A stretch of DNA of 22,131 bases from a virus. Shown one piece after another: positions 1 to 22,131 of this stretch. Numbering within the stretch: position 1 is the first letter of the stretch; every line of letters starts with the position of its first letter. Under the pieces are notes generated by a model, which saw only the letters and a program-made list of their open reading frames with translations, did not search any database and was not told where the DNA came from. The translations under genes were made by a program, and so were the position numbers. The stretch is from IMG/VR virus record IMGVR_UViG_3300025652_000633, positions 1-22,131 of that record; one strand, given 5' to 3'.

Positions 1-784
1 ATGTTACTAACACATTTATATCAACACTAAAACTATATTCTTTATCATCACCATTATCTTTACCTAATCTAATTACAGTATATTTACCATTATTAGTTGA
101 TAAATTCTTTAATTTAATTGTATCACTTTTAGAAAGTCCATGTTTAACTGGTGTAGTAAATGTTAACATATTTCTATTATTTATAATACTTACTTCAACA
201 TCAACAAGTAATAAGCCACCACTAACTAAATTATGAGTAATATCACCTGGTAATTGCCCTACTTTAATTGGATATGAAATGGTAATCTCCCAATTCTTAA
301 CACCATTTTTTGGTGACATACAAAATAAATTTCTGTTTGGTTCCATATCCGTAAACACACAAAATGATGTGTTATTTACATCTGGGTCTCTAAAACCAAA
401 CCAACCATTATCTTCCCTAAGAAACTTATCTATTGATTCTTTATATGTTAAATCACCTTCAGTTTGGTCTAACTCACTAATTGTTGTAGCATTTGATGGG
501 AAACTCACATCCCTAAATTTAGCAGAATTAAAAGTATTCCAACTATTGATTTCAGTAGTATTAAATAAAACATTATTAAATAACGTGTTAAATGTTCCCG
601 TTAACCTATAATATGGAGATTGTTGTCTTTCCTTATTAAATTGTTCACCCACATTGATAACCTTCTCTATATCACCTACAGGTAGTAAGTTTGTCTTACT
701 TTCCAATTTGAGTTTTAGGAAAGAATCTTCGTTCACAGATTCCTGTGAAGACGCACTATTTAATCTAATTTTATTTTCTTCCAT
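1..784 (-). CDS. Partial probable structural protein (3' end outside window)
   Basis: The frame is open from an ATG at 784-782 to the window edge, at least 261 codons with no stop, starting MEENKIRLNSASSQES. The ATG overlaps the stop of the upstream 1170-residue gene as TAATG, so translation is probably coupled and both products are likely made together. The N-terminal 40 residues are polar. The rest is rich in Asn, Thr and Val with alternating hydrophobic residues, which suggests beta structure as in tail or baseplate proteins. I do not recognise a family. Its place as the last visible gene of a gp25-gp6 operon makes a baseplate or tail-fibre-attachment role likely, but this is inference from context. 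The C-terminal part is not visible. Confidence 0.8.
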   Translation of the reverse strand, partial: MEENKIRLNSASSQESVNEDSFLKLKLESKTNLLPVGDIEKVINVGEQFNKERQQSPYYRLTGTFNTLFNNVLFNTTEINSWNTFNSAKFRDVSFPSNATTISELDQTEGDLTYKESIDKFLREDNGWFGFRDPDVNNTSFCVFTDMEPNRNLFCMSPKNGVKNWEITISYPIKVGQLPGDITHNLVSGGLLLVDVEVSIINNRNMLTFTTPVKHGLSKSDTIKLKNLSTNNGKYTVIRLGKDNGDDKEYSFSVDINVLVT

Positions 785-3700
785 TATTCTATCGTATCAC
801 TCGCACAACCAAATTGACTTATTATTTGATATCTATCTGAACTTTTAAGATGACCCCCTAGAGTTAATGACCCATCTGCTGGACCTATTATCCCTGTTTC
901 TACATCGGTACCACCCTTTTGTAAAGTATATTCAACACCTTCAACTAAATTATATGCACCTAACGTGGTGGAATTCAACCTATTTAGACCTGGTTCGGGC
1001 GTATCTTCCACAACAACTTCTTGTGGTATCCCACTTGGAGGGTATTTTTGACCAAATTCATCAACCACTAAAAATCTATAAGCACCTGGTGGTAAATCTT
1101 CAAATATTACAAAAGCAGCTACCACATCTGGGTCTGGATATGTAATATCAGAACTATATGTAGAACCTGTAAAGGTAGATGTGGTCACTGATGAAAATTC
1201 AACCGAATAAAAAGGTGTACCACCTTCTATTTTAAGTCTAACTTGACCATCATTAAATTCAACACAATTAGTTGGTGTTGAAAATGGAGTTACTAATAAT
1301 TGAGTTGGAACCGCAATCGTTCTAGTATAACCAGAAATTTGAGGTTCATCCGTATTACTATCACTTACCGTTATATCATAAATTCCATCATCTAAACCTT
1401 CAAATAATGTTGCATATGGAATATCAAGTTGTGTTGAAGTAAACCCAGCTGGGGTACTTGTTTTTAATATTGTTATATCATAAGGCCCAATTCCACCTGT
1501 AATTGAGTTAATATAAATAATCCCATTATTAGCGGTTGTTGATTGTGAATTTCTTGTTGTAATATTAGCTTCTAATTTTAATAACCCTCTAACAATAAAT
1601 GTTTTTTTAACTGAAACACCATTACTATCAGTAACTATTACAAAATAACTACCAGCTGATAAATTACCAACATCTTCAGTATCACTTAAAGGTATTTGAG
1701 GATTATCAGTTTTATACCATTCATATGTATAATCTGGCGCACCACCTTGTACTGTAATATTAATTGACCCATCGGTACCATTAACTGTTGTTACATCTGA
1801 AATAATACCAGTTATATTAATTATAATTTTAGGCAATCTACTACAAGAAGTAAAATATTTACTATTCATTAAATCTAAAGCAGAATTATTTGGTTTAGTT
1901 CCGAAATAGAAATAAAATGAATTGTTGAACTGTTCAAGAGCACCAATTTTAGTTTTAGCTCTATATGAATTATATTGTGATGAATTAAATTTTGAGTCGA
2001 TTAAATCGATATCATCAAATGCATAATTAGGGTCATTTAATTTAATCAATTGTGAACGTATTAATTCATCATCAATATCAGCATTATCAATTGCGGTGTT
2101 TCTTGTATCATCTTCATCAAGACCCACACCTATTTCACATATCCTTCTAATAGACCTAGATTGTGTATTATTAACTTTAATATTTGTACATGAAATATCG
2201 AATAATAAAGGGACTAAACCTGTAACAGTAATTTGACCAGCTTCATCCCTTTCATTAACAAATGGTGGGATTTGATATGTTGTTGCAATTAATTCTGGTT
2301 GCACTTTTGGTAAAGCTTGCCAATCACAATCAAATACCGCACCTAAATTATATAAATCAGTCGCATATAATTTAGCACCACCAACACCACCAATACCATC
2401 ACTTCTCACACGCCCACTTGTTAAGGGCTTATAAAATAATTCATCTTCATAACTAACAATAACACCCTCATGAATACTAATAGCTTGACTATCACTGACT
2501 CTACCATTATCTGGGTTGGTGTTTACCAACTTATTATTATCAAGTCCATTACTATCTTCACCACCACCGTCTATTTCACCGCAAAATTTCTCATCACTTT
2601 TATTCTTTTTATATTTTAATAAAAACGGGTATAACGCACCATTTATCCATTCATTATAAAAATCAAATTCAAATACATTAAGTGTTTCAGCTAAAGCTAT
2701 TTGGAAACAATCTAATGTTTCACTCTTACTATTATTACCCGTAGTACTACATCGATTTCTACAACCAGGTGTATATTTCACATCAGTAATTGGACATGTT
2801 ATTCTAATACAACCTATCCAACAAAATGGTCTAATTTTAACACCAAGTATTTTAATTTGAAAACTAATAATATTATTTATAATTGATAATATCTCAATTA
2901 TAAATGATATTATTAGACATAAGATTGTATAAACTGGATTAAAATCAGTATCTAATTTATTAAATGGTATAGGATTTTTAAGACCTACACAATTATCAAC
3001 ATCTTTAAACCCTATAAAATTTCTATTTTCCTTATTAGAATTTTTCTGATATCTAGCAATGTGATTTTTAACTGTATATATTTTATTCCAATACATATCT
3101 CTAAAATGGATATCAGATGTTGATTCATCAAAAGAATAATCAACTTCATCTTCCCTTTCTGGATTATGAGGTATTAAATATTTAGCTTTAGTTCTTAATC
3201 TACCACTACCACCTGTTTCATTTAATGATACTTTAAATCTAACCCTAGTTCTAGTTGCGATTCCTTTATTTGGGTTATCAGTTGGAACTAATCTACCAAA
3301 CTCATTAGTAATCATATAGTCTAAATTCATTGGAACTTGAAATGCCCAAACACCATTATCATTAATTAATTGACCACCTTCAATATCTAATTTTTCAACT
3401 TCACCAAATAATGTTTTCCTTAAGATTTCAATAGTACCAGACCCTTCACCCATTTCACAAACTCTACCCATCTTTTTTCTAGGTCTACAGTTTTTATTTA
3501 CACTATTTTTTTCATTATCCCCAAATATTGAACCAGTGAAGATTGCTTGTGGTTGTATATTATAATTTAAATCAATATCAATTCTACTAATACCGACTTC
3601 TTTAGCTTCTTGTTCACCCCAAAATGGAATTACATTAACACCAAGTTGTCTATTTTTAACTTGCGTTAAATTATTAAGATTATTACCAGCTTTAAATTTG

Positions 3701-4296
3701 GTTGGTGAATCAAATAATTTTTTAGGATTACCTTGTTCTATAAAATCATAAGGTCTTTGTGAAAATATTCCAATATCTGATAAATCCACATCCACATTTA
3801 ATATATGATTACCAACTGGAACACCAAATAACATAAAGTCACCAGCACCGTTAGTTGTTGTTGTATATTTATAATATTTTTTATATACCTCAAAAAGCTC
3901 TGGGTTATCAATTAATTCCCTTTTAGTTGGGAATGTACCAATTGGTGCATGACACTCACTTTGTGCATCTTTAGGTAATGTATTATATCTAATACCTTCT
4001 TCACTTAAAACTTGTAAATCTGAATATGGATATAAGGTTGAAATTTCTGGGTCTTGAGCATCTTCATCAGTTAAAGGAATAAAGATTGAAACTCTAGCAT
4101 TAGGAACTCCAACACCACTATTCATTATTACACGCCCAACTACCACACCATAATTTGAGTAAAAACTACGGTATACATCTTCTTGTGATATTTTTAATGA
4201 TAAAATTTCAAGAAAATCAAAATCTTGATTTAATTGAATTTTAACACTATTATCACCACCATTTGGTTCGGTACGGATTCTTATATTTCTTGACAT
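784..4296 (-). CDS. Large multidomain tail/baseplate protein with SprB-like repeats
   Basis: This 1170-residue product is likely a virion protein because it sits directly behind gp25 and gp6 genes. Residues about 50-190 contain a carboxypeptidase-regulatory-like beta-sandwich (VVVGRVIMNSGVGVPNARVS near the start, GAGDFMLFGVPVGNHILNVD near the end). A second similar beta domain follows at about 240-360. Residues about 445-530 are unusual: a strongly hydrophobic stretch followed by a Cys-rich stretch (PFCWIGCIRITCPI, then PGCRNRC). Residues about 823-1095 hold three repeats resembling the SprB repeat of flavobacterial gliding adhesins. The first has the typical elements NGTDGSINITVQGG, YTYEW, LSAGSYFVIVTDSNG. 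The start ATG overlaps the stop of the 103-residue membrane protein gene as TAATG. Exact function is unknown; host-surface contact is inferred from the adhesin-like repeats. Confidence 0.85.
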   Translation of the reverse strand: MSRNIRIRTEPNGGDNSVKIQLNQDFDFLEILSLKISQEDVYRSFYSNYGVVVGRVIMNSGVGVPNARVSIFIPLTDEDAQDPEISTLYPYSDLQVLSEEGIRYNTLPKDAQSECHAPIGTFPTKRELIDNPELFEVYKKYYKYTTTTNGAGDFMLFGVPVGNHILNVDVDLSDIGIFSQRPYDFIEQGNPKKLFDSPTKFKAGNNLNNLTQVKNRQLGVNVIPFWGEQEAKEVGISRIDIDLNYNIQPQAIFTGSIFGDNEKNSVNKNCRPRKKMGRVCEMGEGSGTIEILRKTLFGEVEKLDIEGGQLINDNGVWAFQVPMNLDYMITNEFGRLVPTDNPNKGIATRTRVRFKVSLNETGGSGRLRTKAKYLIPHNPEREDEVDYSFDESTSDIHFRDMYWNKIYTVKNHIARYQKNSNKENRNFIGFKDVDNCVGLKNPIPFNKLDTDFNPVYTILCLIISFIIEILSIINNIISFQIKILGVKIRPFCWIGCIRITCPITDVKYTPGCRNRCSTTGNNSKSETLDCFQIALAETLNVFEFDFYNEWINGALYPFLLKYKKNKSDEKFCGEIDGGGEDSNGLDNNKLVNTNPDNGRVSDSQAISIHEGVIVSYEDELFYKPLTSGRVRSDGIGGVGGAKLYATDLYNLGAVFDCDWQALPKVQPELIATTYQIPPFVNERDEAGQITVTGLVPLLFDISCTNIKVNNTQSRSIRRICEIGVGLDEDDTRNTAIDNADIDDELIRSQLIKLNDPNYAFDDIDLIDSKFNSSQYNSYRAKTKIGALEQFNNSFYFYFGTKPNNSALDLMNSKYFTSCSRLPKIIINITGIISDVTTVNGTDGSINITVQGGAPDYTYEWYKTDNPQIPLSDTEDVGNLSAGSYFVIVTDSNGVSVKKTFIVRGLLKLEANITTRNSQSTTANNGIIYINSITGGIGPYDITILKTSTPAGFTSTQLDIPYATLFEGLDDGIYDITVSDSNTDEPQISGYTRTIAVPTQLLVTPFSTPTNCVEFNDGQVRLKIEGGTPFYSVEFSSVTTSTFTGSTYSSDITYPDPDVVAAFVIFEDLPPGAYRFLVVDEFGQKYPPSGIPQEVVVEDTPEPGLNRLNSTTLGAYNLVEGVEYTLQKGGTDVETGIIGPADGSLTLGGHLKSSDRYQIISQFGCASDTIE

Positions 4297-10154: not shown

Positions 10155-11573
10155 TTATTCTTCTTTAAGAGTTTGCTTATCAAGAGCCTTTTGTAACTCA
10201 ATGGTTTTCATCACTGAAGCCGTATAAGCGTTGTTTTTAGTCTCTTTATATGATTGCATTTCAGAAGCTTTTAGGTAATTTCCATCATCAATATTAATTT
10301 GAATCTTTGCGTTATTAAATTCAACATCTGTAAAAATTATCCCATCAACTCCAAATCTAGATTTCAATATTGCCATGTTAGCACGACCACTTTCTTTTTG
10401 GTCTAAATCTTTTGCAATTGAAACTATAAAGTGACCGATTTGACCTTTTTTAATTGAACCTCCAATCATAGTTGAGTCAACTGTATCAGCATTAATCGAA
10501 TCTCTATTACCTTGAATAGCAGTCCAACCTACCATTTGGAATTCACTTAACAAACTTTCAAATTGTCTCATGATTGGGCCTTCAGCTTCATATCCTTTAT
10601 CATAATTTCTAGTTGATGTAATACAATCAATATAATCAATAAGGATAATATCAGGTTTTCTACCAGCAGCGGTTAACCTTCTAACATAGTTTTTGATTAT
10701 TGGAATGGTTGTCCCATCACTAGGAAATTTCTTTAATTCTAAATATCCACCAGCATCCTCAAATTCTTTTACTTTTTCATCAATTATTGGACGATTTTCA
10801 ACCAATGCTAAATCATTAAGTGCTATACTAGTCCAACACGATAAGTGCTTTCTCTGTATTACTTTTGGATTATCTTCGAAGAAGATTTGTAATACCTTAT
10901 AACCTTGACTATATGCAGTATTTGCAATTTTTGTAATCATTGTGGTTTTTCCAACACCAAATGGTGCTAATATTACCCCTAATTCACCCTTAGATAAACC
11001 ACCATCCATCTTTTCATCTAAACCACTAATACCAGTTGGTATAGGTTTTCTAAAGTCTTCACTTAATACGTCATCAATATTAAAAAATACATCAATACCA
11101 GCATCTTTATCTGAACCGACTTCAAGTGCTTTCTTCATTATTTCCTCACAAGCATCATAATCATCTAAATTACCTTTTTCAATAATCCCTTGAATTTCTT
11201 CCATGGCCTTACGAAGTTCTTGTTGTTTACAGAACTTCATGGCTTTGTCTTGGATATATTCAGAGTCTTTTAACGGAAGGTCTTTAATTTCTTCCATTTG
11301 TGCTGTAATATACATTCTAGTGGCATCATTATCACCTCTAGCGTTAAGTCTATAAATGAGACTTTCATAATCTAGAACAATTTCGTCAGTCTCATGAGCT
11401 TCTTTTATTTCAGAAGCGATAATCCTTAAATATAAATCAGTAAAATAATTAGAATCTATTATTGAGATAATATTACTCGAAAACTTATAATCTGTAATTA
11501 ATTGGGATAACAGTCTCTTTTGATAAGGGATTCCTAAGAACCCAAAACCAACATCTTTATTGATATTACTCAT
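10155..11573 (-). CDS. 41: Replicative DNA helicase, gp41/DnaB family
   Basis: The 472-residue product fits T4 gp41 (475), the hexameric 5'-3' helicase that unwinds the fork and recruits primase. The N-terminal helical domain covers about residues 1-160. The RecA-like motor carries Walker A APFGVGKTT at 203-211, the catalytic glutamate in FFED (Glu233), Walker B DIILIDYID at 308-316 (Asp313), and a polar motif QGNRD (Gln354). GISGLDEKMDGGLSKGEL just before Walker A is typical of DnaB-type motors. It starts 14 nt after the 198-residue gene and lies in one operon with uvsX, the 5' nuclease and nrdBA. No primase gene is visible in this window. Confidence 0.93.
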   Translation of the reverse strand: MSNINKDVGFGFLGIPYQKRLLSQLITDYKFSSNIISIIDSNYFTDLYLRIIASEIKEAHETDEIVLDYESLIYRLNARGDNDATRMYITAQMEEIKDLPLKDSEYIQDKAMKFCKQQELRKAMEEIQGIIEKGNLDDYDACEEIMKKALEVGSDKDAGIDVFFNIDDVLSEDFRKPIPTGISGLDEKMDGGLSKGELGVILAPFGVGKTTMITKIANTAYSQGYKVLQIFFEDNPKVIQRKHLSCWTSIALNDLALVENRPIIDEKVKEFEDAGGYLELKKFPSDGTTIPIIKNYVRRLTAAGRKPDIILIDYIDCITSTRNYDKGYEAEGPIMRQFESLLSEFQMVGWTAIQGNRDSINADTVDSTMIGGSIKKGQIGHFIVSIAKDLDQKESGRANMAILKSRFGVDGIIFTDVEFNNAKIQINIDDGNYLKASEMQSYKETKNNAYTASVMKTIELQKALDKQTLKEE

Positions 11574-11587
11574 ATTTTTATTATTTT

Positions 11588-12184
11588 TTAGTATGTTTCT
11601 AACTTAGCATATTCATCTGAACTTAGTCTGTTATATCTAGTTAAACTAGTTGAACCATATACTTTAGTATAAGACTTTTCGCTCATTGCATCTTGTATAA
11701 TTCTTATAATATTAGGAATTATACTCCTAATATCAATTTCATATCTAACATTAGGGTGGAATATTTTACCATCAAACATACCTATAGCAATTGAATCCTT
11801 TCGAATTGCATCTAAATTAAAATCACCGTCTTTATCACGTAATTTATTAACATTATTCTTTAATACCTCTAAAGAAAAAATATCCTCCTTATCATTTAAA
11901 TGATTATTTTGAGCATAGAAAGGTTTATAAGAATTATCCATACATTTATATTTGAAGAAATCTGGAATTAAACCTAATGTCATTTCTTGATTAATACCCA
12001 TAATATCATCTATCATTTCTTTAATCTCGAATGATTCTCTACAATCATTATTATAATTTTTTACATTGAAGTATCTTTGACAAATAATGTGGTCATTGAT
12101 TCTTAATATAAACTCAAAAGGTTTCACTATTTGCTTTTCGAATTGTCTTTGCTTTCTGTCTTTTTTATTAGCCATTTTGTTCAT
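11588..12184 (-). CDS. Unknown protein between 5' nuclease and helicase genes
   Basis: I do not recognise this 198-residue protein. The N terminus is very basic (ANKKDRKQRQFEKQ), followed by a mixed helix/strand body with a few Cys residues (IICQRYFNVKNYN, YKCMDN) and no visible nucleotide-binding motif or membrane segment. Its start overlaps the end of the 5' nuclease gene by 17 nt, or 8 nt if the second Met (12175) is used, and the helicase gene starts 14 nt after its stop. In T4 the genes between rnh and 32 include the helicase loader 59 and late co-activator 33. A loader or replication accessory role is therefore possible from position and size alone (T4 gp59 is 217 residues). Confidence 0.8.
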   Translation of the reverse strand: MNKMANKKDRKQRQFEKQIVKPFEFILRINDHIICQRYFNVKNYNNDCRESFEIKEMIDDIMGINQEMTLGLIPDFFKYKCMDNSYKPFYAQNNHLNDKEDIFSLEVLKNNVNKLRDKDGDFNLDAIRKDSIAIGMFDGKIFHPNVRYEIDIRSIIPNIIRIIQDAMSEKSYTKVYGSTSLTRYNRLSSDEYAKLETY

Positions 12185-13253
12185 TTATTAAATTTAATTC
12201 TTTCCGCTCTCTCTCTATTAGTTTTTTAAACGGAAGTAAGTAATTAGTGCTGAATGATTCGATTTGTTTATCGACACCATCACGCTTCATGTAGCGATAT
12301 ACATTTTTAATACCTCTATCTTCGATATCGCCCATTGGATTTCTATTGTATTCAACTAAATCCTTATTTTTTTTATCAATTAAAGGGTCACTTAAATCTA
12401 TAATACTTTCATTAATTTTATAGATATTTTTACCTTGTACACCTTGGGTGTTTGATTCGATAATATTAGTTAACGCTTTTAACGGTTTCTTTTTATCCTT
12501 AATACGTTGAGCTTGATGCTTCTTCGCTAATTGAATAATTTCCTTTACAGATAGTTCACGCTCTTTAAGTTCTGGAAAGAATTTTAATAAAGTCGTCTCT
12601 TTAACACCTTCAATACCTTTAATACTGTCGGAATTATCACCACCAATTACTTTAATTAGTTTTAAATTCTTTGGGTGATAGTTAAAATATTTGTTAAAAT
12701 TTTCTAAAGTTACGTAATCTCGAATTTTTCTATCACAGAAGTATATTCGAACATCTGAACTTATCAATTGGCCCAAATCTCTATCTGAAGTGCAGATAGT
12801 TATTTTCTCATTTGGCTGTTTTGTTTTGCAATAATAAGCTATAAAATCATCAGCTTCAACACCAGACTTAGAATTATCTATTAATTGTCTAATACATAAT
12901 TCCTCTAAATATTGTCTGATTAAAAATATTTCGGTTTTTTCTTGAATGTCAATTGGGTGTGTCCCATTAACGAAATCTTTATTTCTATCAGATTTATAAT
13001 CACTATAGAGTTCCCAACGCTGTTTACCACTGAACTTTCCATCCCAAAAGACAAATACTCTATAATATAATTCTTCTTGTAATAGTTTTCTAAGGATGGT
13101 AATAAAGATGTACAATCCACCTATATGGTCACCATCCCTAGTAAACATATCTTTAGCTCCGAAAAAACCTAGTTTAAACAAGGCATTTCCATCGATAAGT
13201 AAGGTATTTCTAATGTTCTTAGATTTACCGTATTTTTGCGGCTTTTTAGCCAT
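12168..13253 (-). CDS. rnh: 5'-3' exonuclease / RNase H, FEN family
   Basis: This 361-residue protein matches the T4 RNase H (305) and phage 5' exonuclease family, which removes RNA primers and flaps on the lagging strand. The acidic metal-binding residues are all visible: Asp21 (LLIDGNALF), Asp71 (VFWDGKFSGKQR), Glu133/Asp135/Asp136 (GVEADDFIAYY), Asp157/Asp159 (CTSDRDLGQL), and Asp206/Asp209 followed by the helix-hairpin-helix region (VIGGDNSDSIKGIEGV). About 50 extra residues lie mainly at the C terminus. It lies downstream of uvsX with 24 nt between, in an operon with the helicase, as expected for a fork enzyme. Confidence 0.92.
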   Translation of the reverse strand: MAKKPQKYGKSKNIRNTLLIDGNALFKLGFFGAKDMFTRDGDHIGGLYIFITILRKLLQEELYYRVFVFWDGKFSGKQRWELYSDYKSDRNKDFVNGTHPIDIQEKTEIFLIRQYLEELCIRQLIDNSKSGVEADDFIAYYCKTKQPNEKITICTSDRDLGQLISSDVRIYFCDRKIRDYVTLENFNKYFNYHPKNLKLIKVIGGDNSDSIKGIEGVKETTLLKFFPELKERELSVKEIIQLAKKHQAQRIKDKKKPLKALTNIIESNTQGVQGKNIYKINESIIDLSDPLIDKKNKDLVEYNRNPMGDIEDRGIKNVYRYMKRDGVDKQIESFSTNYLLPFKKLIERERKELNLINEQNG

Positions 13254-13277: not shown

Positions 13278-14372
13278 CTATAAAATATCATCGCTTGACA
13301 TTTCACCTTCTTCAGTTACAAAATTGATTTGAGCACCATATTCAACCTTAAGTTTCTCATGTATAAACTCTCTATGTTCTTTTTTATATTCTTCAATTTC
13401 TGTCGGATTCCAATATCCGTGTGGGGTTGATGCAATCTTACCCTTTTTCTCTAAACCATTAATATGGTTTTTTTCACAACTAATTTTAGTTTCAATTCCA
13501 AATTGGAATTCATTACCTAATGAAGTTGCTTTAAGTTTAGCCGTACCGTGAGATAAAACTCCACCTAAATGCACTATTAATCTAGAATTATAGAACATAA
13601 ACTCACCACAACTGTGCTTAATTTTCATATTCATATTATCATACCAAATCTTTTGTACACAAATGAATGTGTTAGTGAAAGGTTTGTCTTGTCTTCTAGA
13701 TGAAGGTATTCTAAAGTTAACAATTGGTTGGAAAATTTTCATTGACCCAGCATTCCACATATTATTTGTAGTTGATGATATCGCAGATTTATATCCATTT
13801 AATGTTCCAATAGAATCCCAAAGAAAACATAAATTCTCTTGTAACAATCCTTCAGCTTGAGCATTTAACAATTCAGTCATATGAAGTGCTACATCCTCTA
13901 TTACTGGTTCATACCTTAAAGGGGTTTTACCCATCTTTGAATGTTGATGGTCATAGCATTCATAAGCTTCTAATAATTCTGAATTACCCATGAAAATAAA
14001 TTTACCTTCTGGTACTAATTCACCAGTATCTTCATTAACAACCCATTCAAATTCTACGCCACATGTTTTAGCGTGGTCCCAATGAAAGTTACCCTCTGTT
14101 TCATATATTACTGGCAAATCTCCAACTCTTTGTGCACCAGCAATTGCTTCATAAAATGCAGTTGATTTTCCCGTGTTGGTGTAACCTCTCACTGAAGATA
14201 CATAACCTCTTGGAAATCCAGGTAATTTAATGGCATCATGCCATGCTTTTGATAATGGAATCCATGATAATTCTTTATCTGGAATTGTCTTTGAGATTCC
14301 TTGTGATTTTTTAAAACTACTAAAATCGTAGTTAGCTTTCTTTACTGTTGTTTTACTTGGTTTTTTAGCCAT
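13278..14372 (-). CDS. uvsX: UvsX-like RecA-family recombinase
   Basis: The product (364 residues from the chosen start) is a RecA-fold strand-exchange protein that loads on gp32-coated ssDNA for recombination-dependent replication. Walker A GYTNTGKST lies at 63-71, an ETEG motif at 91-94 fits the catalytic glutamate region, and Walker B LCFLWDS at 181-187 (Asp186). The C terminus is acidic (EEGEMSSDDIL). I chose the ATG at 14372 (MAKKPSKTT): the frame stays open to 14453, but that extension lies across two hairpins in the intergenic region and codes for an atypical leader. It follows the gp32-like gene, and is the first gene of an operon reaching to nrdA. Confidence 0.93.
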   Translation of the reverse strand: MAKKPSKTTVKKANYDFSSFKKSQGISKTIPDKELSWIPLSKAWHDAIKLPGFPRGYVSSVRGYTNTGKSTAFYEAIAGAQRVGDLPVIYETEGNFHWDHAKTCGVEFEWVVNEDTGELVPEGKFIFMGNSELLEAYECYDHQHSKMGKTPLRYEPVIEDVALHMTELLNAQAEGLLQENLCFLWDSIGTLNGYKSAISSTTNNMWNAGSMKIFQPIVNFRIPSSRRQDKPFTNTFICVQKIWYDNMNMKIKHSCGEFMFYNSRLIVHLGGVLSHGTAKLKATSLGNEFQFGIETKISCEKNHINGLEKKGKIASTPHGYWNPTEIEEYKKEHREFIHEKLKVEYGAQINFVTEEGEMSSDDIL

Positions 14373-14405
14373 AATTATTTTTGAGGTACCCCGATTTTTT
14401 TCTAC

Positions 14406-14430
14406 TTTATCCCTAATAATTAGAGATAAA
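14406..14430 (-). other. AT-rich hairpin in the uvsX leader
   Basis: TTTATCTCTAA pairs with TTAGGGATAAA over 11 positions (one T-G pair) with a 3-nt loop on the minus strand. It lies between the GC-rich terminator of the gp32-like gene and the uvsX start. It is followed by an A run rather than a T run, so it is not a standard terminator. It may be an RNA processing or stability element, or part of the uvsX leader. Confidence 0.5.
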
Positions 14431-14458
14431 ATAAGGGGGTAGGTAAACCTCACCCCCT
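14427..14458 (-). terminator. GC-rich terminator after the gp32-like gene
   Basis: On the minus strand GGGGGTGAGG pairs with CCTACCCCC around a 4-nt loop with one bulge (about 10 pairs, 14434-14458), then TTATTTTATC. It starts about 20 nt past the stop codon. It should make the gp32-like mRNA largely monocistronic, as is the case for T4 gene 32. Confidence 0.75.
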
Positions 14459-14479
14459 ACATTATCTATTTACCTATTC

Positions 14480-15433
14480 TTAAAATGGTAAATCATCATC
14501 TTCTTCGACAGCGACTGGTACTTCCACTTCAGCAGTGTTAGTAGTATCAGCAACCTCTTCAGATGCTACTTTACTTGTTGGTTGTTTAGCTGTTGTTGCA
14601 GCTCCACCACCCATAGTGATTTGTGAATCTAAATCACTAGAAGTATCTTCTGTTTGTTCTTCCATCTCATCTTTATCAACAAACTTTTCAAGTTTCTTAT
14701 CCCAAGCTGGAGTTTTACCAGTTGCAACTAGTTTTAAGTAGTCATAACCTTTTACAGAATAAACATCTCCCCATGTCTTTTCACTGTTAACCCATTTTGT
14801 TGCTAACTCTGAATCTTCACTTAAAACTGTTCTATCATATCCTTGAATAGCGTTCACTACTGGATAAGTACCACCTCTTGGATTCTTAACTCTAACGATG
14901 TTTAGAATTAAATCTCTACCCTCTTTATCATCAAAGATATCTTCTTTACCAGCTTCCCAGTAAGTTTTACCAACTGCGGCAATTTTATCAAAGATACCTT
15001 CTTTTTTGTAATTGATTGGAAATCTCCAGAATTTTGGACCGTGGTCTTCATTTTCTCTGTCAATTACTTTAACAATATACATTAACCTAGCTTTAAATTG
15101 TTTAGCTAATTCTTCATCTGATTTTACACCAGTTGAAAGTAATTGTTCTCTCAATTCACAGAATGGGCAATCTTCATCATTAAGATGTTTAATACAAACG
15201 AACTTTCTGTTCTTTCCATCCACTTTTGCACTATGTACATGAACTTCTTGTAAAGGTGAACTACCATCATTTGTTGGTAAAATTCTAATTCTTTTCGTTG
15301 CATTATCAATACCATCTGGTAAGTAGGTTGTAAAATAGTTGTCTGGGTTAAACGCAGACTCACTTGAGCTTGATGTTGATTTCTCATACTGAGATAACAT
15401 CGCTAATAACGGATTCTTTTTTTCGTTACTCAT
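14480..15433 (-). CDS. 32: Single-stranded DNA-binding protein gp32-like
   Basis: This 317-residue protein (T4 gp32 has 301) coats ssDNA and organises the phage replisome and recombination. A zinc-binding set His67-X12-Cys80-X8-Cys89-X2-Cys92 (VCIKHLNDEDCPFCEL) matches the His-Cys3 site of T4 gp32. The N-terminal 30 residues are basic and Ser-rich, as needed for cooperative binding. The C-terminal 75 residues are acidic and end in EEDDDLPF, which is the tip sequence of bacterial SSB proteins. The start MSNEKKN follows a long A-rich, unstructured leader. The gene has its own promoter-like element and terminator, so it is expressed apart from its neighbours. Confidence 0.93.
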   Translation of the reverse strand: MSNEKKNPLLAMLSQYEKSTSSSSESAFNPDNYFTTYLPDGIDNATKRIRILPTNDGSSPLQEVHVHSAKVDGKNRKFVCIKHLNDEDCPFCELREQLLSTGVKSDEELAKQFKARLMYIVKVIDRENEDHGPKFWRFPINYKKEGIFDKIAAVGKTYWEAGKEDIFDDKEGRDLILNIVRVKNPRGGTYPVVNAIQGYDRTVLSEDSELATKWVNSEKTWGDVYSVKGYDYLKLVATGKTPAWDKKLEKFVDKDEMEEQTEDTSSDLDSQITMGGGAATTAKQPTSKVASEEVADTTNTAEVEVPVAVEEDDDLPF

Positions 15434-15591: not shown

Positions 15592-15626
15592 AAAAAAAAA
15601 TGTGCGATAATAATTTATCGCACATT
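15592..15626 (-). terminator. Strong terminator after the acidic 240-residue gene
   Basis: On the minus strand AATGTGCGATAA pairs perfectly with TTATCGCACATT (12 pairs, 4-nt loop), followed by a run of nine T. It lies 28 nt past the stop codon and insulates the gp32-like promoter from upstream transcription. Confidence 0.9.
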
Positions 15627-17649: not shown

Positions 17650-20600
17650 TTAAGAATTAACTATATTTTCTAATTTAATTTTAAGTACCCTTAAAGAACC
17701 TTCATAATCTTTAGTTGCAGCATATCTAGCATTATAATCTTTTCTTCTAAACTTATCATAATTTAATAAATTTAACCAATTATTATCATCTGGAATATAA
17801 GATTTTATAGTATTTGTATAAGCTTTAACACCAACTTCCCAACTTCCATAATCTTTCCTATAACCAAGTCTTTTAGCTTCTTCTGGTGTTAAAGTATCAC
17901 CCTCAGTTATATTTAATATATTAAAAATATTAAAAGTAGATGTGGCCGCACCTTTTGTACCAAAATTACTTTCAGCCGCTGCTTGTAATAACATTAATTC
18001 TAATGGAACATTATATTTAAGTGCTAAATCTATATAATTTTGACCATTTAATGGTATATCAGTGCCATCATCAGTTACTGAATCAATAAATAAATTAATT
18101 TTACTTGATGTTAATAAAGGTTTTTCTATTTCAATTAAATTAGTATTAAAAATTGTATTATTATTTTTATAAACTTTAGCTTCAATATCAGTTGATTTAG
18201 TGTTTGGTTTATTTTTATTACTACCTGTTGTTAAAGAATCTAAATCAGCACCCTCTTTACTAACTTCATTTAAATTAGTGATTAAGTGTGCGTATAGAGT
18301 TTTATCATCAATCATTTTTGTTTTAACTGCACGAACTCTAACACCCTTAAATGTAGTAGTCATATGATTTGCTTTGATACTATGTCTAGTGTTTATGATG
18401 TTATAAGCACCATCAAACATTGGGATATTATCTAATTGGAAATACATAAATGGTTGTATTTGAGCACAACCTAACATTTCAACTTCACAAGAATATGCTC
18501 TATTGTTATAAATATCAAATAAATTTTGACCAATAGAGTTATTTCTATTTTGATTAGATAAACTCTCGATTATCTCAAGACTTTCTTGTGTTTCAGTAAA
18601 TTCCGATTGGTCTAAACTAAAACTCTTAAATAATGATTGATTTTGGTCAGCATATTTAACTAAAAAATATGGCACTTTAGTACTACCTGATACAAAATCA
18701 TCAGGTAATTGACTTGAATTATTCACGGATATATTATCACCATTACATTTTACATCTAAACTCCAACTATCATTCTTTTTAAATTTAGCACCTTTTTCAA
18801 TATTCAATTTATTAGATTGCTCACCAAAATACATACATATAAATGATGGACCACTAGCTGGTGGTGCTTCATTAAACCTGAATGGTTCGAATACATCCCT
18901 AATTTCTTCTTTATCATTATAATTAATATATGTTGGTAACGGAATAAAATCAAAATTATTATCTCTTAATATTCTAGCGATAAAATTATAAAAACTAATA
19001 TTTGTATTATCTTTCCAATAATTAACAAAAGTTGTTGGTGCAATTTTAAATTTATCCGAAATATCAATGTAAGCCCTATCAATGAAATTAAATTTATTAT
19101 ATAAATCTGTAGTAACAACACCAGAGCGAATTTGCGGAATACCTACAACCCATTTATCATAGATTGATTTTACATTCTTATATAAACTTAATTTTATATC
19201 ATCATCATCATTAGTATTAAATAAGGATTGTTTAACTTCTTCTACTGGGTCTATAACTTCTTTTGTGTTTAAAGTTTTAAACTCTTCAAAAAATGTTCCT
19301 AAATAAGTATTAACAGTAGCTTCTGGTACGTCAAAATTGATAAATCTATCTTCCGATGCGTTCCAAATTCGATAAGTCGAATTAATTATTATTCTTTCTT
19401 CGAATAATAAATCAATTATTTGATTAGCACCTTCACCACCATCTCTAAGGTCTAAAACAAAGTGATTTTCTTCAGTATCTTTTGATACTACAACATAATT
19501 TTGTGCAACATTTGTCCTTAAAACCTCTGAGTTAACTACAGATGAGAAATTATCCCATGCGGCATTTCTTTCAGATGCACCAGCGTTATCAGAAAAAATC
19601 TCTAAATTGTTTTTTAAATTTAACCATCCATTATTATTAATATCATCTACCCAATTCTCAAACGTTAATTTAAACTCATTCTTAACCGAATCTGGAAGTC
19701 TACTAATTATATCATTTATTTTAATATCATAACTAACTTCTTGAGATTGAAGTAAGAATTCTAAATTTAACCCTAATGTGGTTGTAGTAGTTCTTTTATA
19801 ACTACCAATTAAATAACTATCTGGTTCAATTTGGATTGAACCCGATAATTTAGGTATAAATGTTTGGTTATTATCATCATTGAAAATTAAGAAATCTTCT
19901 ACACTATTTCTATATAAAATAGCACCCATAAATAACACCCATGAATATGGTACCGAAACAAAACCACCTCTTTGATTGAAATAATTTATTTCTTTACCTT
20001 GTAATAAACCTTTATTAACCCCATTCCCAAATAAACCTGTACTTATTTCACCACCCATACCAGCAAAGGGTAATGTATGTAAAAATAAAAAGGCCCTTCC
20101 AATATTACTTTGTCTATAATAAAATTCACTACCAAATAATGAAAAATCAGTTTTAGAACTTCTAAACATCGGTTGAAATTTAAAGGTTCTATTTATTGGA
20201 TTTCCCTTTTCAATATTTTCAATAAGTTGACTTTTAAATGTTTTTTTATCATAAATTGACCCTAATCTTTGTTTATCATTTTGTGTTAATATTAATCTAG
20301 AATTGGGATTATATATAAAATTACCATTACCATCACTAATAAAAGTGTCATATTCATTTTGAGTTGAATCTTTTCTAAATGAATTTACAACATCATTACC
20401 ACCCTCATAGAATTCATAAAATAATGGAATATTACCACCAACTTCATGTTTATATTCTAAAAATTCATGAGTTCTATATTTACCACCAAATATTTTATTA
20501 ACATTAGAAATGTTAACTTTTTTTTCTTTAAAATTACTAGTTAATGAGTCAATATTTAAATCAGAATCATAATCATATAAAAAATTATCTGAATAATTAC

Positions 20601-22131
20601 TACGATTTATTATTTTAATAAATGTTTCATATTCTTTTGAATTTGGAACTGTGTCGTTTTCTAAAACATTTGAAACTACTGTTGATACGAATGTATTTGC
20701 GACACTTCTCTCTTCAAGACTATTTAATTGGTTAAAAGATTCTTCAAGTGTTGATAGACTTTGATTAATTGGTATATATGTTGCTGTTGGTTTATCAAAA
20801 TCATCATTAGTAACAACTGATGATGTATGTCTATAACTTAATATTTCATCATTAAGTAAAAATTTCATGCCAAACTTTTCTCTAATTTGACGTGACCAAC
20901 TAGCGATTTTACCATTAACACCTAAAATATCTGTATTATCACTAACAATACCTTTTTTAACGTTTGAATTTAAAAGAGTGTCATACATTTGTCTAGCTTC
21001 AAGCTTAGCCATTTTTGTAATTTCTTCACTTGATAAATTACTATTTGTATACGTTAAAAACAATATCATCCTTTGATAAAGTAATTTAGCTGGAAATATT
21101 TCAACTTTATTTTGAGGTATTAACCAAGGGTTTGTATTCGAACCATTAAATGCTTTTGTTTCTAATGGATTAACTGGATACCAACCTTTTTCATTTTTAT
21201 TAACATTTAATAAAAATTCTTGGTCTTTTATTTTAGATTTAATAATTGAATTTAATAAATCTTCAATGAAAGTAACTTCTTTAAATTCTTTAAATTTAGG
21301 GTTAGAACCTAACCATTTTTCAACCAACGCACCATCTTCTTTCTCAACATATTCTGGAAATGCTTTAATTGTTATAGTGGAATTGTTATTATCATCTTTA
21401 TATTCAGTAAAAGTTTCTTTATTTGACCCTTGAATAGTTCTAATACCACTATCAATATCAGTTTTAATGGATAAACCAAGGTCTCTAAGAACTCTAATTA
21501 ATAAATCAACATGGCTACATAAGATTCTAAAAAAAGACCCTATAGACCCATCAAAATCAATTCCTTGTTCATCGAAAAAATCATTTAATTTTGATATAAA
21601 TTCTTCACTAACTAAATTTTTATTATCAATTAACTCATTATTAATTTGTTCCCTAATATCATTAATTTGTTGTATAGCAAACCTAGCATCAAGCATGTTA
21701 TATTTACTTAATGTTACGCTAACACTATTCGAACTTATGAATGGTGGTTGATTTAATATTTGTATAAATTCATTATATTTCCTTTCAATGATATTATCAA
21801 TTTTTTCAGTACCAGTTAATATAAAATTCTTATATTTATTAACTATTATATCAGAATTGTCTTGAAACTCATCTAACGTTTTAAATCTTCTAAATACACT
21901 TGATATATTATCCCTAATTATGAAATCATTCATTTCAAAATCCTTATAAAATATTCCATCACTATCTAAAACAAATTTAGAAGTGTTTAATTCAAAAGAC
22001 TTAGCATTAGTTACTTTAGTAAATTGATTATATTCATTTACTAATTTTATTACAGAATCTTGATAATCTTTAATAAAAGACCTACTCAAATCTTGAGAAT
22101 TTAGAGTATAAACGATTTCATTTGTACTATT
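17650..22131 (-). CDS. Giant baseplate hub-like protein with C-terminal glucosaminidase domain (5' end outside window)
   Basis: The frame is open from its stop at 17650 to the window edge (1493 codons). The only nearby start candidate is a TTG at 22089, and the frame continues 14 codons beyond it, so the true N terminus is probably outside. The C-terminal 155 residues resemble GH73 glucosaminidases: LMLLQAAAESNFGTKG with the expected catalytic Glu (about residue 1373 counted from the TTG), then FNIFNI, in the place of the family's NLFGIK. Before it, at about 1200-1260, CEVEMLGCAQIQPFMYFQLD and FDGAYNIINTRHSIKANHMT resemble the end of gpD/gp27-type tail hub proteins. The rest is Asn-rich without a recognised domain. 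Role inferred: central tail hub that also cuts peptidoglycan during injection, joining tasks that T4 splits between gp27 and gp5. Confidence 0.8.
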   Translation of the reverse strand, partial: NSTNEIVYTLNSQDLSRSFIKDYQDSVIKLVNEYNQFTKVTNAKSFELNTSKFVLDSDGIFYKDFEMNDFIIRDNISSVFRRFKTLDEFQDNSDIIVNKYKNFILTGTEKIDNIIERKYNEFIQILNQPPFISSNSVSVTLSKYNMLDARFAIQQINDIREQINNELIDNKNLVSEEFISKLNDFFDEQGIDFDGSIGSFFRILCSHVDLLIRVLRDLGLSIKTDIDSGIRTIQGSNKETFTEYKDDNNNSTITIKAFPEYVEKEDGALVEKWLGSNPKFKEFKEVTFIEDLLNSIIKSKIKDQEFLLNVNKNEKGWYPVNPLETKAFNGSNTNPWLIPQNKVEIFPAKLLYQRMILFLTYTNSNLSSEEITKMAKLEARQMYDTLLNSNVKKGIVSDNTDILGVNGKIASWSRQIREKFGMKFLLNDEILSYRHTSSVVTNDDFDKPTATYIPINQSLSTLEESFNQLNSLEERSVANTFVSTVVSNVLENDTVPNSKEYETFIKIINRSNYSDNFLYDYDSDLNIDSLTSNFKEKKVNISNVNKIFGGKYRTHEFLEYKHEVGGNIPLFYEFYEGGNDVVNSFRKDSTQNEYDTFISDGNGNFIYNPNSRLILTQNDKQRLGSIYDKKTFKSQLIENIEKGNPINRTFKFQPMFRSSKTDFSLFGSEFYYRQSNIGRAFLFLHTLPFAGMGGEISTGLFGNGVNKGLLQGKEINYFNQRGGFVSVPYSWVLFMGAILYRNSVEDFLIFNDDNNQTFIPKLSGSIQIEPDSYLIGSYKRTTTTTLGLNLEFLLQSQEVSYDIKINDIISRLPDSVKNEFKLTFENWVDDINNNGWLNLKNNLEIFSDNAGASERNAAWDNFSSVVNSEVLRTNVAQNYVVVSKDTEENHFVLDLRDGGEGANQIIDLLFEERIIINSTYRIWNASEDRFINFDVPEATVNTYLGTFFEEFKTLNTKEVIDPVEEVKQSLFNTNDDDDIKLSLYKNVKSIYDKWVVGIPQIRSGVVTTDLYNKFNFIDRAYIDISDKFKIAPTTFVNYWKDNTNISFYNFIARILRDNNFDFIPLPTYINYNDKEEIRDVFEPFRFNEAPPASGPSFICMYFGEQSNKLNIEKGAKFKKNDSWSLDVKCNGDNISVNNSSQLPDDFVSGSTKVPYFLVKYADQNQSLFKSFSLDQSEFTETQESLEIIESLSNQNRNNSIGQNLFDIYNNRAYSCEVEMLGCAQIQPFMYFQLDNIPMFDGAYNIINTRHSIKANHMTTTFKGVRVRAVKTKMIDDKTLYAHLITNLNEVSKEGADLDSLTTGSNKNKPNTKSTDIEAKVYKNNNTIFNTNLIEIEKPLLTSSKINLFIDSVTDDGTDIPLNGQNYIDLALKYNVPLELMLLQAAAESNFGTKGAATSTFNIFNILNITEGDTLTPEEAKRLGYRKDYGSWEVGVKAYTNTIKSYIPDDNNWLNLLNYDKFRRKDYNARYAATKDYEGSLRVLKIKLENIVNS

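Follow-up and report, generated by a model that had tools for sequence, protein, structure and literature searches.

A gp32-family protein with a bacterial SSB-type C-terminal tip in uncultured T4-like phages

The DNA analysed here, called the window throughout, is a 22-kb virus fragment (22,131 nucleotides, taken at full length). Its minus strand carries a replication block with the gene order gp32, RecA/UvsX-like recombinase, 5'-3' exonuclease, a 198-aa protein and DnaB-type helicase (Table 1), and this gp32-to-helicase order is kept in a 59-kb relative, in a 184-kb relative and in a single-cell contig. The 198-aa protein (11588-12184, minus strand), encoded between exonuclease and helicase, is conserved but of unknown family; homologues were present in 3/3 relatives checked, and its position makes it a candidate helicase loader. 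Between gp32 and the RecA-like gene lies a spacer (14376-14482, minus strand) that is predicted to fold at -33.4 kcal/mol (z -3.5 versus shuffles) into two strong hairpins and is possibly a processing or attenuation element, while upstream of gp32 lies a terminator-like 12-pair hairpin with a T-run (15599-15626, minus strand); no Rfam match was obtained in the window. A protein of 1479 aa (17650-22089, minus strand) with a glucosaminidase domain at its end is perhaps a tail-associated lysin. We also searched the relatives for the T4 mediators gp59 (PF08993, PF08994) and UvsY (PF11056), and neither gave a match. Since the gp59 model finds the T4 protein but misses two cyanophages tested, and the UvsY search was run without a positive control, these absences were discarded as evidence.

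Table 1. Features of the replication region of the window, with the basis of each assignment
Feature	Positions	Strand	Basis
gp32-family ssDNA-binding protein, 317 aa	14480..15433	-	PF08804 6.6e-15; PHROG ssDNA-binding families; RB69/T4 gp32 fold match
SSB-Ct-type tip VEEDDDLPF, residues 309-317	14483..14509	-	relatives' [LIM]PF ends; synonymous-only codon variation
Variable, disordered linker, about residues 258-308	14510..14662	-	low pLDDT; barely alignable
gp32 core with OB fold, about residues 33-257	14663..15337	-	AlphaFold pLDDT; Foldseek
T4-type zinc site H67, C80, C89, C92	15158..15235	-	sequence; alignment; missing in many relatives
RecA/UvsX-like recombinase, 365 aa from ATG, directly downstream of gp32	13278..14375	-	phrog_97 1.1e-7; PF00154 below cut-off
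5'-3' exonuclease, replication block	12168..13253	-	PF02739 2e-26
DnaB-type replicative helicase	10155..11573	-	phrog_19 1e-52; PF03796

By its Pfam match and predicted fold, the 317-aa protein is a member of the gp32 family. The PF08804 match scores 56.1 bits against a cut-off of 26.8, and an AlphaFold model built with nine homologues as input (mean pLDDT 70) is more confident in the core, with pLDDT of about 74-92 per 10-residue block, than across residues 261-317, where pLDDT stays below 50 and the C-terminal 57 residues are predicted to be disordered. In a fold search of the PDB the modelled core matched RB69/T4 gp32 (E 7.5e-12 to 4e-11), the top Foldseek matches being 2a1k, 1gpc and 8gme (E 7.5e-12 to 1.6e-9), although a sequence search of the PDB returned no match. 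The SSB OB domain (PF00436) was found neither in this protein at E 0.001 nor in the virus record; the protein thus stands outside the SSB family and may act SSB-like at its tip. The first-pass annotation had pointed to a T4-type His-Cys3 zinc site and to the terminus EEDDDLPF, and the sequence bears out both: all four zinc ligands are present, and the reading frame ends VAVEEDDDLPF-stop, with EEDDDLPF at 14483-14506 and the stop codon at 14480-14482.

The first-pass annotation had named lack of conservation of this tip in close relatives as an outcome that would refute its docking idea, and the idea passed this check easily. Relatives were collected in three steps. A scan with the 317-aa protein as query returned 80 loci, whose complete distinct products among the matches listed all end in LPF; a second scan, with patterns placed only in the core, was combined with a search of bacterial genomes and raised the number of distinct complete relatives to 113 among the matches listed; and a third, for which the most distant members served as seeds, yielded 54 further relatives, again among the matches listed. 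The retrieval patterns of the second and third scans sit in the core, outside the tail. These loci are the best-ranked of larger sets and hence a sample in which many rows are close kin. Among the matches listed, the tip proved to be conserved: an [LIM]PF end closes 166 of 167 distinct relatives, 161 of them with LPF. The near relatives account for 113/113 distinct complete proteins with LPF among the matches listed, and the 54 distant ones for 48 LPF, 4 IPF, 1 MPF and 1 LPL, the distant tips including DIPF, the same as in E. coli SSB. After thinning, the tip is kept in 47/48. It is retained down to about 30% identity among the matches listed, beyond a disordered linker that can barely be aligned. 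The codons behave accordingly: across 89 distinct tails of 24 nt, all from the nearer set, Leu is encoded by five codons (TTA, CTA, CTT, TTG, CTC), Pro by four and Phe by two, with synonymous change only and 0 replacements. An [LIMV]PF end occurs in just three of the 208 ORFs of the window and two relatives, and all three are gp32s. Conservation, synonymous-only codons and this scarcity rule out a chance resemblance to the bacterial SSB C-terminal peptide (SSB-Ct), and the tip is a real feature under strong selection.

The zinc site is less constant. Among the matches listed, the His-Cys3 motif was not matched by pattern in 76/113 near and 10/54 far relatives, and because many members without it keep the tip, the tip is the more tightly conserved of the two features. 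In relatives of the L012 type the zinc cysteines are replaced (KLYDPGKNDGERSPLTE); the zinc site is lost across a large sub-clade that retains gp32-family membership and the tip.

Outside this group the LPF end was not encountered. It was found in 0/136 other gp32s (68 from a cyanophage search, 65 from a T4 search and 3 of Herelleviridae type, with sequences common to both searches left in the count), and it is also missing in pelagiphage HTVC008M, Pseudomonas phage Nican01, Acinetobacter phage 133 and S-PM2; with 0 of about 140 non-clade gp32s, a general gp32 trait is ruled out. Cyanophage and T4 gp32s each carry a conserved acidic terminus peculiar to their lineage, so conservation alone is no pointer to host partners. 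In a maximum-likelihood tree of the core, made after removal of the last 40 residues and so without the tip, a branch supported at 99/98 sets the tip-bearers apart, with the LPL sequence as the sole exception on their side. The simplest reading of this split is one swap of the C-terminal peptide, long ago, retained ever since. The phage collection searched holds no cultured isolate of the clade; the tip-bearing phages are a large, uncultured T4-like group.

The host of this group is probably to be sought among Bacteroidota. The best phage matches of the window NrdA are Cellulophaga and Tenacibaculum phages, and the 184-kb relative, which also encodes a T4-type gp23 and prohead protease, has SprB and TonB-dependent-receptor domains. 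In the window itself, an SprB repeat occurs in a 1170-aa protein (784-4296, minus strand) adjoining baseplate genes. Together these make a Bacteroidota host likely. A Bacteroidota promoter motif gave no signal as a host clue (3 matches versus 1.8 expected). An 84-kb contig, QCKH01000004.1, is a largely co-linear member phage within a single-cell assembly of Prochlorococcus, in which the SSB terminates in DIPF, and it may reflect a real cyanobacterial host, a co-sorted virus or contamination. Another short member contig lies in a Spirochaetes MAG. These two contigs could mean either a wider host range or mixed assemblies.

Within the probable host phylum, the best 30 Bacteroidota SSBs by score, from genes of 99 genomes, are all LPF-ended (28 DLPF, 1 GLPF, 1 ELPF); further SSB copies from the two MAGs with member contigs have more varied ends. 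A classical SSB gene was looked for in 11 relatives (28-273 kb) and not found. Judged from sequence, the gp32 tip is of SSB-Ct type by its conservation, acidic run, position, L/I/M exchanges and identity with the Bacteroidota DDLPF. For E. coli SSB, published accounts give at least 17 partners engaged through a nine-residue acidic tip (PMC7145534, PMC10018359). Of the partners originally proposed for the phage protein, RecO and PriA are both available, each in 51/51 Bacteroidota genomes searched; exonuclease I was found in 0/51 of these genomes, its E. coli control being positive, and was for this reason rejected and dropped as a partner in Bacteroidota.

What, then, might the tip do? We lean, by a modest measure and from sequence comparison, towards the reading that a gp32 lineage swapped its C-terminal peptide for the [LIM]PF peptide of SSB, and that the tip docks into the SSB-Ct pockets of host proteins. 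Tip-bearing gp32 would then probably plug into the host DNA repair and restart machinery. Phage ssDNA would be coated by the gp32 core, and the disordered linker would present the tip to the SSB-Ct pockets of always-available host proteins, RecO and PriA first. Host SSB-binding proteins would read gp32-coated phage ssDNA as if it were SSB-coated, and recombination-mediator and restart functions could be recruited to it despite its cover of phage protein. A phage DnaG-type primase or the RecA-like protein may share the use of the tip. The broader proposal, that a deep T4-like clade moved recombination and restart from mediators of the UvsY/gp59 kind to host RecO and PriA by this swap, is tentative, and we are inclined to doubt it.

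The phage itself also offers partners, and the tip could serve mainly these, with the downstream RecA-like protein or a phage DnaG-type primase reading an SSB-Ct-like peptide. In the window as in three relatives, gp32 is directly followed by the RecA-like gene, a DnaG-type primase domain was found in the 184-kb relative, and precedents exist in that the C-terminal region of T4 gp32 recruits phage proteins (PMC11551737) and that the RecA-like Sak4 of HK620 requires the last six residues of the phage SSB, NDYPPF, for its binding to SSB-covered DNA (PMC5928155). This makes the RecA-like neighbour a serious rival partner, and sequence data cannot separate a phage from a host partner. Nevertheless, the tip closely matches the host SSB end, and it does not diverge between members as the RecA-like and other replication proteins strongly do, while a phage-only partner could drift together with its peptide, as appears to have happened with the T4 and cyanophage tips. 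We regard a mainly phage-directed tip as rather unlikely.

Two further explanations were weighed against docking on host proteins. An acidic, aromatic-ended tail might act mainly within its own molecule, competing with ssDNA for the cleft and thereby tuning binding; the acidic end of the T4 protein has been suggested to compete in this way (PMC11551737), and the tail here is acidic too. Electrostatic competition, however, needs acidity, which is variable here, rather than a near-invariant LPF with L/I/M exchange only, and this explanation seems improbable. The tip might also be a decoy that titrates SSB partners off the host DNA and blunts host repair or defence. Its identity with the host SSB tip and the abundance of gp32 during T4 infection can be counted for this idea, but recruitment accounts more simply for the same data, and we give the decoy very little credence.

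The textbook example of a self-contained phage replisome is that of T4, with gp32 at its centre. In a clade combining gp32 with a host SSB tip, such a hub protein would be seen to converge on the host docking code; the clade would offer a simple peptide test of host-factor dependence, and a natural gp32/SSB hybrid would help to learn what SSB-Ct alone can do. The literature searched, with most subscription journals outside it, yielded no description of a gp32 with an SSB-type tip.

Among known systems, T4 and RB69 gp32 (PF08804) share with the window protein the core fold, the zinc site (in the window member) and the domain order of N-terminal segment, core and acidic C-terminal tail; T4 gp32, however, ends LDDLLNDL and has no aromatic tip, whereas the window protein ends DDDLPF. 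Its nearest gp32s from cultured phages are those of cyanophages and pelagiphages (phrog_224, phrog_1192), which differ in ending with an acidic run and an ALSYFxxLAEE-like peptide, never with LPF. Bacterial SSB-Ct (DDDIPF in E. coli) is alike in its terminal acidic run followed by a hydrophobic residue, P and F after a disordered linker, and the Bacteroidota SSB end DDLPF is identical to the window gp32 tip; in bacteria, however, a PF00436 SSB domain bears the tip, and here a gp32-family core does. Phage T7 gp2.5 belongs to a different protein family and is not known to end in LPF. Its likeness to the tip described here lies in an acidic tail and an essential C-terminal phenylalanine, as stated in a title cited in PMC9917605. 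The HK620 SSB with Sak4 is similar in that a phage ssDNA-binding protein carries an SSB-Ct-like tip next to an adjoining RecA-like gene, but the HK620 protein has been presented as a bona fide SSB, not one of gp32 type, and its shown partner is phage-encoded (PMC5928155).
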